Source: Marinobacter sp. LA51 (GTDB lineage Bacteria; Pseudomonadota; Gammaproteobacteria; Pseudomonadales; Oleiphilaceae). Taken from it: 64,000 bases of DNA. This document shows positions 18,523-22,830 of the stretch, in pieces; the first letter of the stretch is position 1; the number at the start of each line of letters is the position of its first letter. Under the pieces are notes generated by a model. The model was not told where the DNA came from and ran no database searches. It worked only from the letters and a program-made list of their open reading frames with translations. The stretch is from positions 2,976,001-3,040,000 of the forward strand of contig NZ_AP028070.1 of NCBI RefSeq assembly GCF_030297175.1. Direction: 5' to 3'. Position numbers and translations under genes: made by a program.

Positions 18523-20040
18523 TCAATCGTCATCGTTTTCCTCGAGTTCGATTTCGTCGGCAATGAAATTGTTCCCATCCCGTGAATATTCAACTTCGAG
18601 AATCAGAGTTTCTCCATTGCCGAATCGGTTAATGACTTCTGCCTGAGAATTATCCGCATAGCTTGCTGGAGCCGCATCTATCGACACCCCGAGAATCATG
18701 ATGGAGCTAGGGGTAATGGCCGTGAGCTTACCTTCCAGTTCATACCGGTCGCGATCGGCAACAGTGGCCGTTTCATCGTCCACTTCGACTTTCAACGCTT
18801 CGATAAAGGTGTCAGTTCCCTGCTGCCTCTCAACCCCCTCAACCTCCACTGTCGTGGAACCAACTGGAAGAGTCAGGAAGGTAACGTCGGAACCGTCTTC
18901 AACGGTAAATGTTGTTGTCGGTGAGACCCGAACTTCAACGCCACCAACAAAAAACACACTGTCAGCAGCTGATGAAATAACCCCTTCGGCCTTTGCATTG
19001 CCATCCCGGCGCTCAATCTCTTCCGCCTCAACAACGGTTTCCGAGATGAAACTGCCTTCCACCTGGACCAGAAGCCCTTCGGTCAAATCCGCGAGCGTGA
19101 CGTCGTCATCAAGCTCGGTGGTTTCCGTCACCCTGACCGTCAGATCTCCCATCCGGAATTCTCCGGGACGAGAGGTAGTCCCGGAAGGCGTGTAAGACGA
19201 ATCGATTGTCGCAGTGAACTCAATATCGCCGGCATTATTACGTCTGAAACGACGGGCGTCGTCCCGATCTATTGTGACTGCAGTCAACACATTTCCAGCG
19301 AGGCTGCCCTCAACTTCCAATGCCGTGATGTTTGCCAAATCCGCCTCTGTCAGCCCGGAACCAAAACTGACTGCACTCTCGTCGTACTGAACGGTAATTG
19401 TGCCAATCGTGACTTCGTTCTGCGCTGCATCAGCCGCCGATACTCTACCCTCCAGCTCAACATCGGTCAGATCTGGAGAGATCGTCTCAATATAGCCAGC
19501 CCGGTAAGAGCCATCAGCCTGGCGCCAGGCGCTGACTCTGACATGGTCACTGATTGGGGAGCCGCCAAGCAGGGTGGCGTAGGTTGTGCCGCGAACGACG
19601 GTCTGACCATCAACCCGCACTGACTGTCCCATGACTGTGAGGGTTACAAACTCACCAGCACCGCTTGGATCAGCAACGACCTGCTCAACCGGACCACGCA
19701 AGGTATCGTCGTAACTAAGTCGATCAGCCGTTCCCGTGCCATCATCTCGCCACTGGCCCTCGACTCTCAGAATCATTCCTTCACTGAGATCTGTCTCTAA
19801 CTGAACACCATCATTACTTTCCACTTCCTGATTCGGGATGCCATCTGTGTTGAACTTCACCCCATTAACAAACACACTCCCGAACCCTGAAACTGGCCCA
19901 ACGCTTGAACCGGTTCCCCGGATTCCTCCATCTGCCACATCCAGCCCGCCGCCTCCGGCACCACCACAAGCGGCAATCACACCAAAGGCCATTGAGCCGG
20001 CGAGCAGCTCGAAAACACGATTACGGAGTTGCCGTGTCAT
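18523..20040 (-). CDS. DUF5666-domain lipoprotein B
   Basis: This 505-residue predicted lipoprotein (lipobox ending VIAAC25, then GG-rich linker) contains tandem DUF5666 small beta-domains. It is a paralog of the product of 20982-22451: shared blocks include VSGFGSVFVNGVKF, YDDTLRGPV, LMGQSVRVDG and RVSAWRQADGSYRAGY. DUF5666 domains have no known biochemical role; the fold is OB-like or beta-barrel-like by family description. The start at 20038-20040 is chosen because it follows GGGGAG and gives the signal peptide. It begins two bases after the stop of the DUF6502 gene, so the two are co-transcribed. Confidence 0.85.
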   Translation of the reverse strand: MTRQLRNRVFELLAGSMAFGVIAACGGAGGGGLDVADGGIRGTGSSVGPVSGFGSVFVNGVKFNTDGIPNQEVESNDGVQLETDLSEGMILRVEGQWRDDGTGTADRLSYDDTLRGPVEQVVADPSGAGEFVTLTVMGQSVRVDGQTVVRGTTYATLLGGSPISDHVRVSAWRQADGSYRAGYIETISPDLTDVELEGRVSAADAAQNEVTIGTITVQYDESAVSFGSGLTEADLANITALEVEGSLAGNVLTAVTIDRDDARRFRRNNAGDIEFTATIDSSYTPSGTTSRPGEFRMGDLTVRVTETTELDDDVTLADLTEGLLVQVEGSFISETVVEAEEIERRDGNAKAEGVISSAADSVFFVGGVEVRVSPTTTFTVEDGSDVTFLTLPVGSTTVEVEGVERQQGTDTFIEALKVEVDDETATVADRDRYELEGKLTAITPSSIMILGVSIDAAPASYADNSQAEVINRFGNGETLILEVEYSRDGNNFIADEIELEENDDD

Positions 20041-20042
20041 AA

Positions 20043-20900
20043 CTAATCTCCCCGTTTCCGGCCTTTGCCGGCAGGTTCTTCGAAAAAGAAGACGCTTACG
20101 CCCGTGCGGACAGGATCCCCGGACAAACAGCCAGAGCCTTGCCCCGAAATGTCTCGATCGTGGGGCCCCAGCCATTTATCCAACTGCTCCAGCAGTGTCT
20201 GGGACTGGGCAGCTGCATGCTTGCGCCAGCTCTCCATCATCTCCGGAGGAATGTTGTTGTAGGTCAAAGTTCTCTGGAACATTGGTGACTGGCCAGATTC
20301 GCCGCTAACCAGATTGTGATCAATTGTCGCTATAAGATCAGACACGTCCTCGCCGAAAATCTGGAGCATTTCCTCGCTGTCTCCGGCCGGAACATAAGCT
20401 CTTTGCTGCAAGATTAGCCCGCCTGATTCCGCATCTATCGAAACGACGCCGACCCGAAGCAATTCATCAAGCACCGCACGGGGAGGCATGTCACCGCTGT
20501 ACCGCTTAACCAATTCGCTGAAGCTCAACGGTCCGTCAAAAGACAAAACGGCTGGCTCTCCGGCTTTGGTCTGGAAGGCCGTATCGTGTACCCAGCCCGA
20601 CACCACCCGCGACGCCCGGTTGGAATGAAGCACATCGCTCGCGCTCGAGCCCGTGTTCTGCCCTGCAAGGATTTCACGCTGACGCTTTACTTCCTTTCGG
20701 GTCAGCCCGGTCATTACCGCAGCACGGGAATCGGTGGGCTTTCGTCGGCCGTCGTCAAAATCCTCCAGAGCGGCTTCTACATAGGCACGCTTCACCAGCT
20801 CGGAGAATTCGCCGAAAGGAATGCCGTTCCTCAACAGCAACCGCGTCAAAGGACGCAGGATGCGGAACAGCGCTTGATGCAGGGAGGAGGTCTTTTTCAT
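20043..20900 (-). CDS. DUF6502 family protein, probable DNA-binding regulator
   Basis: The 285-residue protein matches the DUF6502 pattern: LFRILRPLTRLLLRNGIPFGEFSELVKRAYVE is the family opening, and SRAAVMTGLTRKEVKRQ resembles a winged-helix recognition segment (about 57-75). A middle region (about 120-160) looks like a second small helical domain. The C-terminus is low in similarity to anything I know. A palindrome TGGGA-N6-TCCCA abuts the start codon, and two further copies precede the upstream DUF5666 gene, so autoregulation and control of the lipoproteins are plausible. Function is inferred from context only. Confidence 0.8.
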   Translation of the reverse strand: MKKTSSLHQALFRILRPLTRLLLRNGIPFGEFSELVKRAYVEAALEDFDDGRRKPTDSRAAVMTGLTRKEVKRQREILAGQNTGSSASDVLHSNRASRVVSGWVHDTAFQTKAGEPAVLSFDGPLSFSELVKRYSGDMPPRAVLDELLRVGVVSIDAESGGLILQQRAYVPAGDSEEMLQIFGEDVSDLIATIDHNLVSGESGQSPMFQRTLTYNNIPPEMMESWRKHAAAQSQTLLEQLDKWLGPHDRDISGQGSGCLSGDPVRTGVSVFFFEEPAGKGRKRGD

Positions 20901-20903
20901 GTT

Positions 20904-20919
20904 TGGGATTGTATTCCCA
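20904..20919. promoter_or_regulatory. TGGGA-N6-TCCCA palindrome at the DUF6502 start
   Basis: TGGGA-TTGTAT-TCCCA lies three bases upstream of the DUF6502 ATG. On the minus strand it contains TACAAT, a good -10 hexamer, about eight bases from the ATG. Transcription may therefore begin at or very near the start codon. Two palindromes with the same half-sites and spacing occur at 22515-22530 and 22541-22556. Confidence 0.7.
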
Positions 20920-20942
20920 TAGCTACGTCAAAAGCCAGAATA

Positions 20943-20966
20943 CCTGGCCGGCGCAAACCGGCCAGG
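20943..20966 (-). terminator. Hairpin terminator after DUF5666 lipoprotein A
   Basis: CCTGGCCGG-CGCAAA-CCGGCCAGG gives a perfect 9-base GC-rich stem 15 bases after the stop of the 20982-22451 gene, with a modest U-rich tract following in the minus direction. It separates that gene from the DUF6502 gene, which therefore has its own promoter. Confidence 0.6.
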
Positions 20967-20981
20967 GCTGGCATTGGCTGC

Positions 20982-22451
20982 TCAGACTTGGGAAGCATCC
21001 GCGGGGGTGCTGTCCTCACTGCCATCAACGTCGACATTTCCGGTCAATTCGTACTGACCGCCACCGGTCGGGCGATACTCGATTTCCACTTCATCACCAA
21101 CTTGGACACCGGACAGGCTGAAGCCATTACGAAGGACCTCCAGGTTCATGATCGTCACGGTATCGGCTCCGATCGCGCTCACTCGGGCTTCGAGCTCGAA
21201 ATCGTCATCCTCGTCACTGTCCTCGCGCTCAATACTGATGGCTTCGAGGAATCCGCCCTCAGTACTATTCTGACGACCTTCAATTTCTAGATAGTCACCT
21301 ACCTGGAGGCTCTGGATGTCACGGGCTCGACTGTGGCGGCCATCCTGATCCTGATCGTCATCATCGATCAGGGTATTTCCTGTCAGTTGAACACGAACTC
21401 CACTGACGATCATGGATTCGTTGTCCAGATCGATGGATTCAATACGGCCATCGAGTTCAGCATCAGATTCCCGGCCCTCAATCTCTTCAGCAACGACTAC
21501 GCCGTTGATCGCCTCCCCTTCAACCTTTACGAAAAGTCCATCGACGAGGCTGCCTTCAGAGAGATCGTCAAATTCCGTGTCGCCATTGATCTGTACCCTG
21601 ACACCATTCAGCGAGAACTGACCGCTAGAGGCGTCAAAGTCATAGATGCTTCCGGAGATCTCGACGTCGTCATCGTCGTTGAACAGGTCATCCTCATCAT
21701 CGATTTCCTCGGCCATAATCGTGTTGCCGTCCAGGTAACCCTCCACCTCCACAACGATTCCGTTCGCCAGATCATCAACGGAGAAATCATCATCGCCGAC
21801 AGCGCTGGTGTAATTGATCTGGAAGCCGTTAATGGTGAAAGTCTGGGCGCTTGTGTCCAAGTTGGCGACAACGCCTTCAATCTCGACCTCGTTGTTGTCA
21901 TTGAACTCCACACCGATGGCTCGGGCACCGACAAAGCTTGCCCGGAAGCTGCCATCCTGCAGGCGCCAGGCACTGATCCGAACGCGGTATCCTTGAGGGT
22001 TGCTGGCAATGGCCGTCGGAGTCGCGCCACGGAAAACAGTTTTTCCGTCCAGCGAGATACTTTGGCCTAGAAGGGTCAGAGTTCCTGTGCGGGCTACGTC
22101 ATCCCAGCTCATAACAGAAACAGGGCCGCGGAGCGTATCGTCGTAACTGATTCTGTCTGCCCGGCCCTCGCCCCGCTCATCCCAGTTACCTTCAACCTGC
22201 AAAATCATCCCTTTCTCAAGCTCATCTTCGCGCGCCAAACCGTCGTCGCTGGTAACGCTACCATTGGTCTCAAAGCGGGTGCCGTTGACGTAGACACTGC
22301 CAAAGCCCGAAACCGCACCAACGCTGGCGCCTGATGAGGTACCACCGCCCTCAGAATCTCCGGATCCACCGCCGCCACACGCGACAATGGCACTTGCCAG
22401 GGCGCCGGTCATGGCCAGCTTCACTGCGATAGCTAAAGGTTTGCGATTCAT
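20982..22451 (-). CDS. DUF5666-domain lipoprotein A, acidic
   Basis: The 489-residue predicted lipoprotein (lipobox SAIVAC25, then GGGGSGDSEGGG) carries several tandem DUF5666 units with the recurring pattern VEVEGYLDGNTIMAEEI / VKVEGEAINGVVVAEEI. It is highly acidic, with runs such as DDEDDLFNDDDD and DDDDQDQDG that may bind divalent cations (inference). It is paralogous to the product of 18523-20040. Two TGGGA-N6-TCCCA palindromes lie 64 to 105 bases upstream of the ATG. Surface or periplasmic location is expected from the lipobox. No catalytic motif is visible. Confidence 0.85.
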   Translation of the reverse strand: MNRKPLAIAVKLAMTGALASAIVACGGGGSGDSEGGGTSSGASVGAVSGFGSVYVNGTRFETNGSVTSDDGLAREDELEKGMILQVEGNWDERGEGRADRISYDDTLRGPVSVMSWDDVARTGTLTLLGQSISLDGKTVFRGATPTAIASNPQGYRVRISAWRLQDGSFRASFVGARAIGVEFNDNNEVEIEGVVANLDTSAQTFTINGFQINYTSAVGDDDFSVDDLANGIVVEVEGYLDGNTIMAEEIDDEDDLFNDDDDVEISGSIYDFDASSGQFSLNGVRVQINGDTEFDDLSEGSLVDGLFVKVEGEAINGVVVAEEIEGRESDAELDGRIESIDLDNESMIVSGVRVQLTGNTLIDDDDQDQDGRHSRARDIQSLQVGDYLEIEGRQNSTEGGFLEAISIEREDSDEDDDFELEARVSAIGADTVTIMNLEVLRNGFSLSGVQVGDEVEIEYRPTGGGQYELTGNVDVDGSEDSTPADASQV

Positions 22452-22514
22452 TGTTTTTCTCCAAGCTTGTTATTGCGTCCGCAGGCGGTCGCCATTGATC
22501 AACCAACCCATAAA

Positions 22515-22530
22515 TGGGATTAATTTCCCA
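22515..22530. promoter_or_regulatory. TGGGA-N6-TCCCA palindrome, copy A upstream of DUF5666 lipoprotein A
   Basis: TGGGA-TTAATT-TCCCA, same half-sites and spacing as at 20904-20919. Its centre is 26 bases from the centre of the next copy, so two dimers could bind on nearly the same face of the helix. Confidence 0.7.
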
Positions 22531-22540
22531 AATTTAGAAA

Positions 22541-22556
22541 TGGGAATTTTATCCCA
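22541..22556. promoter_or_regulatory. TGGGA-N6-TCCCA palindrome, copy B upstream of DUF5666 lipoprotein A
   Basis: TGGGA-ATTTTA-TCCCA. Together with copy A it lies in the AT-rich divergent gap between the lipoprotein gene (minus) and the small DUF6435-like gene (plus), so it may influence both. Confidence 0.7.
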
Positions 22557-22656
22557 AAAATTGACAATGTCTAGCTTTCAATCAAAAAATTTTCGTGAAC
22601 TTTATGGGCCAAACAACGTAAGGTTCTCAGTACTCTGTCAATACAGGTCCAAACCG

Positions 22657-22830
22657 ATGCTGGGATTTTTGAAAGGCGATCCGAGAAAGAAGCTCCAGAA
22701 AGCCTATGAAGACAAACTGGAAAAAGCCCTGCACGCGCAACGCAATGGCGACTTGCGCACTCACGGCACGCTGATGGAAGAAGCGGAGAAAATTTACGCC
22801 GAGATCGAGAAGCTGCCGGCCAAAAAGTAA
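22657..22830 (+). CDS. Small DUF6435-like protein
   Basis: A 57-residue, highly charged helical protein beginning MLGFLKGDPRKKLQKAYEDK and ending EKIYAEIEKLPAKK. This pattern (FLKGDP-KKL-K-Y--KLE-A---QRNGD) matches the small DUF6435 family found in marine gammaproteobacteria. The ATG at 22657 is chosen because it gives the family N-terminus; the open frame extends further upstream without similarity. Function unknown. It is divergent from DUF5666 lipoprotein A and shares the palindrome-containing gap. Confidence 0.75.
   Translation: MLGFLKGDPRKKLQKAYEDKLEKALHAQRNGDLRTHGTLMEEAEKIYAEIEKLPAKK

Follow-up and report, generated by a model that had tools for sequence, protein, structure and literature searches.

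A DUF6502 protein as a candidate autorepressor acting at a conserved palindromic operator shared with DUF5666 lipoprotein genes

We propose that the DUF6502 protein encoded in the 64-kb window (the whole stretch of DNA analyzed here) is a dimeric, sequence-specific operator binder that represses its own gene and co-represses the adjoining DUF5666 lipoprotein genes, a reading to which we assign a probability of roughly 0.78. An earlier note on this DNA had suggested that a DUF6502 regulator controls itself and surface lipoproteins via the palindrome TGGGA-N6-TCCCA, and this model is supported, with DNA binding as its presumed basis, by the genes that the palindrome precedes, its conservation, the co-occurrence of the two families, and a predicted helix-turn-helix (HTH). 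The accompanying description as a signalling system exceeds the evidence, as no signal or ligand was found. The features of the module are as follows (positions in the window):

18523–20040, minus strand: DUF5666 lipoprotein A (PF18914, E 2e-30; reference with one extra codon)
20043–20900, minus strand: DUF6502 gene, 285 a.a., the proposed autoregulator (PF20112, E 3.4e-61; sole copy in the genome)
20658–20732, minus strand: predicted HTH of DUF6502, residues 57–81, TDSRAAVMTGLTRKEVKR
20904–20919, minus strand: DUF6502 operator, TGGGAATACAATCCCA, 3 nt 5′ of the start codon and holding a -10-like TACAAT (20908–20913)
20982–22451, minus strand: DUF5666 lipoprotein B, first gene of the module (PF18914, E 6.7e-46; lipobox-like AIVAC)
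22515–22530, minus strand: proximal operator of lipoprotein B, TGGGAAATTAATCCCA, spaced 26 bp from its distal partner
22541–22556, minus strand: distal operator of lipoprotein B, TGGGATAAAATTCCCA, carrying a -10-like TAAAAT
22657–22830, plus strand: DUF6435 small protein, 57 a.a. (Pfam), divergent from the operator pair

Read along the minus strand, the module comprises the operator pair, DUF5666 B, the single operator, DUF6502, and DUF5666 A. The DUF6502 protein matched PF20112 at 206.9 bits (cut-off 27; model positions 4–263 of 268), while the DUF5666 proteins matched PF18914 above its cut-off (105.3 and 154.8 bits, five stretches apiece), and all nine DUF5666 matches in the Marinobacter genome fall inside these two proteins. 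With 38% identity across 385 aligned columns, they are indeed the flanking paralogues that had been described. The palindromes precede DUF6502 and the DUF5666 gene at 20982–22451 but not the one at 18523–20040; lipoprotein A starts 2 nt past the DUF6502 stop and has no operator of its own, and we therefore read it as co-transcribed with DUF6502. Both lipoproteins are probably located in the outer membrane. A sequence search for DUF5666 relatives with a solved structure returned none (E up to 1), Pfam hints to the OB fold and CusF lay below the cut-off, and the literature passages that name DUF5666 give table entries only. A plasmid origin of the module was considered and rejected, given that a plasmid collection held no match at megablast sensitivity.

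All three palindromes reported earlier were found in the window, against 0.07 expected, and none of 100 dinucleotide shuffles reached three copies, bearing out the view that this number is improbable by chance. Tolerating one mismatch gave five sites against 2.8 expected, which is no excess, and the signal is therefore the exact palindrome. Across the complete Marinobacter genome (3,774,518 bases), the exact pattern is not common, occurring only as the three copies of the module; a reversed control pattern occurred once.

Within Marinobacter, the exact operator lies 5′ of DUF6502 in 50/50 named loci, and in the genus loci L044–L073 it ends 3 nt (28 loci), 2 nt (one), or 4 nt (one) before an in-frame start codon (30/30). 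The exact operator pair is present in 45 of 51 Marinobacter sequences, the window included, with a spacing of 26 bp in 33, 25 bp in nine, 27 bp in two, and 24 bp in one. DUF5666 occupies both sides of DUF6502 in 45 of the 50 other named loci (in one of these, L110, two frames make up the first copy); the first copy is missing in L140, L144, and L149, only a short remnant is left in L153, and L151 lacks DUF5666. The divergent DUF6435 gene (22657–22830, plus strand) was rejected as the target of the operator pair: L144, L149, and L151 have lost the first DUF5666 gene together with the pair, retaining only the DUF6502 operator, yet keep DUF6435, so that we assign the pair to DUF5666 B. We did note that DUF6435 is present in 42 of the 50 named loci, being divergent and less than 400 bp from the first operator in 39.

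Two Marinobacter species (L151 and L153) have lost or truncated DUF5666 while keeping DUF6502 and its operator, and offer a natural test of the role of the regulator without its lipoproteins. Of 100 genus genomes, 54 have full-length DUF6502 together with DUF5666, two have DUF6502 only, two DUF5666 only (one weak), and 42 neither (p 3e-23); eight genomes have only short DUF6502-like matches. A short DUF6502-like frame also lies just behind DUF6502 in 27 of the 50 named loci (e.g., L104 6846–7256) and is absent from the window. It is mostly 131–152 a.a. long, matches the middle of the model with no HTH, mostly overlaps DUF6502 by 4 nt, and could be a modulator of DUF6502.

The operator is not confined to this genus. 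We enumerated all 1024 five-base arms from -400 to +30 of DUF6502 with spacers of 0 to 14, using stretches inside genes as controls. TGGGA with a spacer of 6 was the commonest arm by far, found upstream of DUF6502 in 50/50 named Marinobacter loci, 22/30 named loci of other genera, and 13/30 loci of the class (a few loci being common to the two 30-locus sets), whereas the next best arm reached five, one, and two loci, respectively. TGGGA arms with any other spacer from 0 to 14 numbered zero in these three sets, as did those in the in-gene controls. Given that the set of other genera spans Gamma- and Betaproteobacteria, Nitrospirota, Desulfuromonas, and SAR324 (by record title, many as MAGs), the palindrome is conserved in relatives of the Marinobacter strain and also beyond its phylum.

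With 95 further regions, 206 DUF6502 genes passed the length filter, of which 200 were distinct. Outside the 50 named Marinobacter loci lie 152 distinct genes (151 non-Marinobacter and that of the window): 57 have the N6 operator, 12 have a variant with a spacer of 5 (N5), and 83 have no exact site within 400 bp. Spacings of 3, 4, 7, 8, and 9 were absent from these 152 genes, as from the in-gene controls; the arms do not vary, and the spacer differs in its letters but has only two lengths. The N5 operator was found by the enumeration of arms and gaps, and the N6 pattern matches nothing in those loci. When 158 genes (the 152 and six from Marinobacter) were sorted, 19 had a one-mismatch N6 site, four a one-mismatch N5 site, one either of these, six had an exact N6 site at a greater upstream distance, and 53 had no site.

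The association of the palindrome with DUF6502 is also seen at the level of genomes. In the class, TGGGA-W6-TCCCA (the AT-spacer site) occurs in 47/99 genomes with DUF6502 vs. 10/270 without (p 4e-22), and the reversed pattern in 3/99 vs. 13/270. In the genus, the reversed pattern is also commoner with DUF6502 (2.3 vs. 1.4; p 0.006), the real pattern showing the stronger difference (5.1 vs. 1.5; p 1e-14). The expected co-occurrence of the two families was found across the 369 class genomes, of which 83 have both, 16 DUF6502 only, 11 DUF5666 only, and 259 neither; the AT-spacer site is present in 43/83, 4/16, 2/11, and 8/259 of these, respectively. We inspected one site in each of 30 genomes (24 with DUF6502, 6 without). 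With DUF6502, ten sites lie before DUF5666 (in L093, the called DUF5666 frame overlaps the site), six before DUF6502, three before other named genes, and five elsewhere; without it, one lies before DUF5666, one before a membrane protein, and four elsewhere. Among the proteins neighboring DUF6502 (90 scanned of 107 called, in 24 of the 30 named loci of other genera), DUF5666 accounts for 25 and the next family, response regulators, for five.

The HTH-like segment noticed earlier in DUF6502 was placed by structure prediction at residues 57–81, where helices H57–64 and H68–81 of the AlphaFold2 model form a predicted HTH; G65 and R68 are invariant across 96 diverse DUF6502 sequences. The operator spacing covaries with the second of these helices, the putative recognition helix. 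A His at residue 67, before the invariant Arg, is found in 12/12 N5 genes vs. 0/63 N6 genes, the helix of the N5 group reading TG(I/V)HR(K/R) or nearly so (a stricter pattern counts 11). This His is likewise carried by the four one-mismatch N5 genes and by 18 genes without any site. In a tree of 153 DUF6502 proteins (68 labelled N6, 11 N5), the spacing changes once (SH-aLRT 98), and the covariation of spacing and helix is a single event. As DUF5666 sits downstream of members of both spacing clades, the operator is tied to DUF6502 rather than to DUF5666.

These data also bear on the idea that another regulator binds the palindrome and that DUF6502 is merely a target, for example an envelope protein partner. 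The site does precede genes with no adjoining DUF6502 (DUF5666, a P-loop protein in three genomes, and a beta-propeller lipoprotein in one), as such a regulator might predict; however, its presence follows that of DUF6502 across genomes, its spacing varies with the recognition helix of DUF6502, and apart from DUF5666 (25/90) no gene is comparably regular beside DUF6502 (5/90 for the next family). We consider this explanation quite improbable, and take DUF6502 itself as the likely binder in what follows.

Two DUF6502 models were compared with known structures, and along the whole protein HetR, the regulator of heterocyst differentiation in cyanobacteria, was unexpectedly their best match and the only one of high probability (PDB 4j00, 4izz, 3qod, 4hri, and 4yrv), although the match of the predicted fold is loose (rmsd 10.3–11.2 Å over 206–228 residues, TM about 0.36), and kinship is putative. 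The proteins are similar in length. In the DUF6502 model, an HTH domain at the N-terminus is followed by a middle domain, and the position of the HetR hood is taken by two long C-terminal helices; the strands of the HetR hood are not seen in the monomer model. The palindromes of both have GGG and CCC half-sites, differing in that HetR requires GGG-N5-CCC according to a passage of PMC4649674, while the DUF6502 sites read GGG-N8-CCC (N6 class) or GGG-N7-CCC (N5 class). Autoregulation, proposed here for DUF6502, is described for HetR in passages of PMC4649674 and PMC4192349. The two differ in that HetR answers to PatS peptides and belongs to a different phylum. About 50 HTH residues of Rrf2/IscR, IclR, and other winged-HTH families superpose on DUF6502 at 2–3 Å with a Z as high as HetR's; most of these match only the HTH (mainly residues 28–84), a few Rrf2 entries reaching 71–86 residues at 3.4–4.9 Å.

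Sequence searches for the same relationship were mostly negative. PF03574 (Peptidase_S48), which we take to be the Pfam HetR model, was absent from the matches listed for 30 DUF6502 members (E up to 10, with filters dropping most matches above 0.1) and had no match in the Marinobacter genome (E up to 10). HetR was not listed (E up to 10) when the PDB was searched with profiles built from 30 and from 96 DUF6502 sequences, an overlap-mode alignment of the two proteins gave nothing, no HetR homologues were found on plasmids, and hhalign against one HetR sequence returned a probability of 0.1. With HMMER, for which 426 real decoys and 500 shuffles were made and 269 and 303 scored, the HetR proteins of Fischerella (4.2 bits; equalled by 0/269 real decoys and 2/303 shuffles) and Anabaena (0.7 bits; 7/269 and 10/303) were at noise level. 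An end-to-end, domain-matched alignment with Anabaena HetR gave z values against shuffles and real segments of 4.3 and 4.1 for the hood (reached by 0/150 and 0/426), 2.3 and 2.1 for the DNA-binding domain (4/150 and 12/426), 2.9 and 2.0 for the flap (1/150 and 17/426), and 4.1 and 2.3 at full length (0/150 and 1/238), with wrong-domain controls between -0.5 and 1.6. These values lend weak support to the likeness and are supportive only, because gap costs and domain borders were self-chosen and the run followed a negative version.

We tentatively suggest, at somewhat under even odds, that HetR and DUF6502 could belong to one superfamily, with DUF6502 as its arm outside the cyanobacteria (Proteobacteria, Nitrospirota, and others). 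It would then be an intertwined dimer with the DNA-binding, flap, and hood domains of HetR, and a small ligand or peptide bound by the hood would set its control of its own gene and of a regulon of outer-membrane lipoproteins. RG(S/T)GR peptides act on HetR, releasing it from DNA. Of the 63 N6-class DUF6502 proteins, 23 (e.g., L018 and L028) have a G[ST]GR motif within their C-terminal 75 residues and nowhere else, which recalls these peptides and may have arisen by chance.

The position of the operator relative to promoter elements speaks to the direction of control. Among 56 non-Marinobacter N6 promoters, 22 have a TTGACA-like box (at least 5/6) that starts precisely 17 bp ahead of the operator and 34 have one somewhere in the vicinity, vs. 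two for a control stretch 150 bp upstream. The operator is followed by the first in-frame start codon at 1–5 nt in 36/56 (mode 3 nt, 23/56) and at no more than 12 nt in 38, 32 of which have TAnnnT at operator offset 6. The plan outside Marinobacter is thus a 17-bp spacer, a -10 box inside the operator, and a transcription start at or beside the ATG, a geometry from which many DUF6502 mRNAs would be leaderless. Lambda CI and the TetR of some transposons are leaderless autorepressors whose operator lies on their own promoter. DUF6502 resembles them in having its operator on the -10 box and its start codon at the expected transcription start, and differs in fold and family and in that its repressor role is deduced.

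The DUF5666 promoters of Marinobacter follow the same plan: their consensus, seen in 33 loci, is TGGACA-N17-TAAATT, whose -10 falls within the distal operator; the window has a promoter-like TAGACA-N16-TAAAAT at 22573–22546, on the distal operator of lipoprotein B, although a consensus promoter scan of the window (two sites vs. 1.2 in shuffles) is not significant alone. The DUF6502 operator in the window and in Marinobacter has the -10-like TACAAT but no good -35, and the scan detected no promoter at that place, which weakens the leaderless reading for this genus.

Being an inverted repeat, the palindrome could in principle form a hairpin in RNA or serve in recombination or integration. We regard this as barely credible: the arms are only 5 bp and fixed, spacer letters vary while only two lengths occur, and the palindrome would not be transcribed, because it ends 1–5 nt before the start codon in 36/56 promoters, mostly with a -10-like box. 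DUF6502 might instead bind the site and activate, as described for HetR, the nearest fold, which the abstract of PMC7377430 calls an activator; the Marinobacter DUF6502 promoter, without a good -35, is what an activated promoter might look like. However, the -10 box itself is covered by the site, 22/56 promoters have a near-consensus -35 at 17 bp, and a protein bound at such a place normally excludes polymerase. HetR too may repress, as one target is derepressed in a hetR mutant according to a passage of PMC4192349. Activation therefore appears unlikely to us, and we favor repression. In this proposed mechanism, a DUF6502 dimer would recognize TGGGA-N6-TCCCA (N5 in one clade) where it overlaps the -10 box of the DUF6502 and DUF5666 lipoprotein promoters, and the bound protein should exclude RNA polymerase, closing a negative autoregulatory loop. 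The same binding would co-repress the lipoproteins until a signal, presumably acting on the C-terminal part of DUF6502, releases repression.

In agreement with the earlier statement that no such system had been described, the open-licence literature yielded no description of DUF6502 or PF20112, nothing on HetR-like proteins or HetR homologues in Proteobacteria, and nothing relevant on TGGGA/TCCCA half-sites in connection with an operator and regulator. With these results, DUF6502 becomes a proposed family of transcription factors whose defined, testable operator is retained in several phyla, and a simple pattern search for this operator gives a regulon of DUF5666 lipoproteins, which are also uncharacterized. 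According to a passage of PMC4649674, the flap and hood of HetR are novel folds; if the likeness to HetR is real, this protein would have relatives outside the cyanobacteria, and the origin of heterocyst control would become directly testable; if the superfamily reading is true, this developmental regulator would derive from an older envelope-linked switch.

The operator was also noted before several other genes. These include related P-loop proteins with sub-cut-off similarity to DUF1611 (L156 5321–5336, L085 1501–1516, and L094 1501–1516), found in a Nitrospiria MAG and two Gammaproteobacteria, with compared pairs 57% and 38% identical, which are possible further members of the regulon. In one genome, it precedes a beta-propeller lipoprotein. 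Related uncharacterized membrane proteins (44% identical) follow the operator at L098 1501–1516 and L281 2544–2559, in genomes where DUF6502 was not found by the class genome scan; L098 also has a divergent gene for a 4Fe-4S/pyridine nucleotide oxidoreductase. Finally, in Variovorax dokdonensis, a DUF4382 protein (L169 6855–8057) replaces DUF5666 behind DUF6502.
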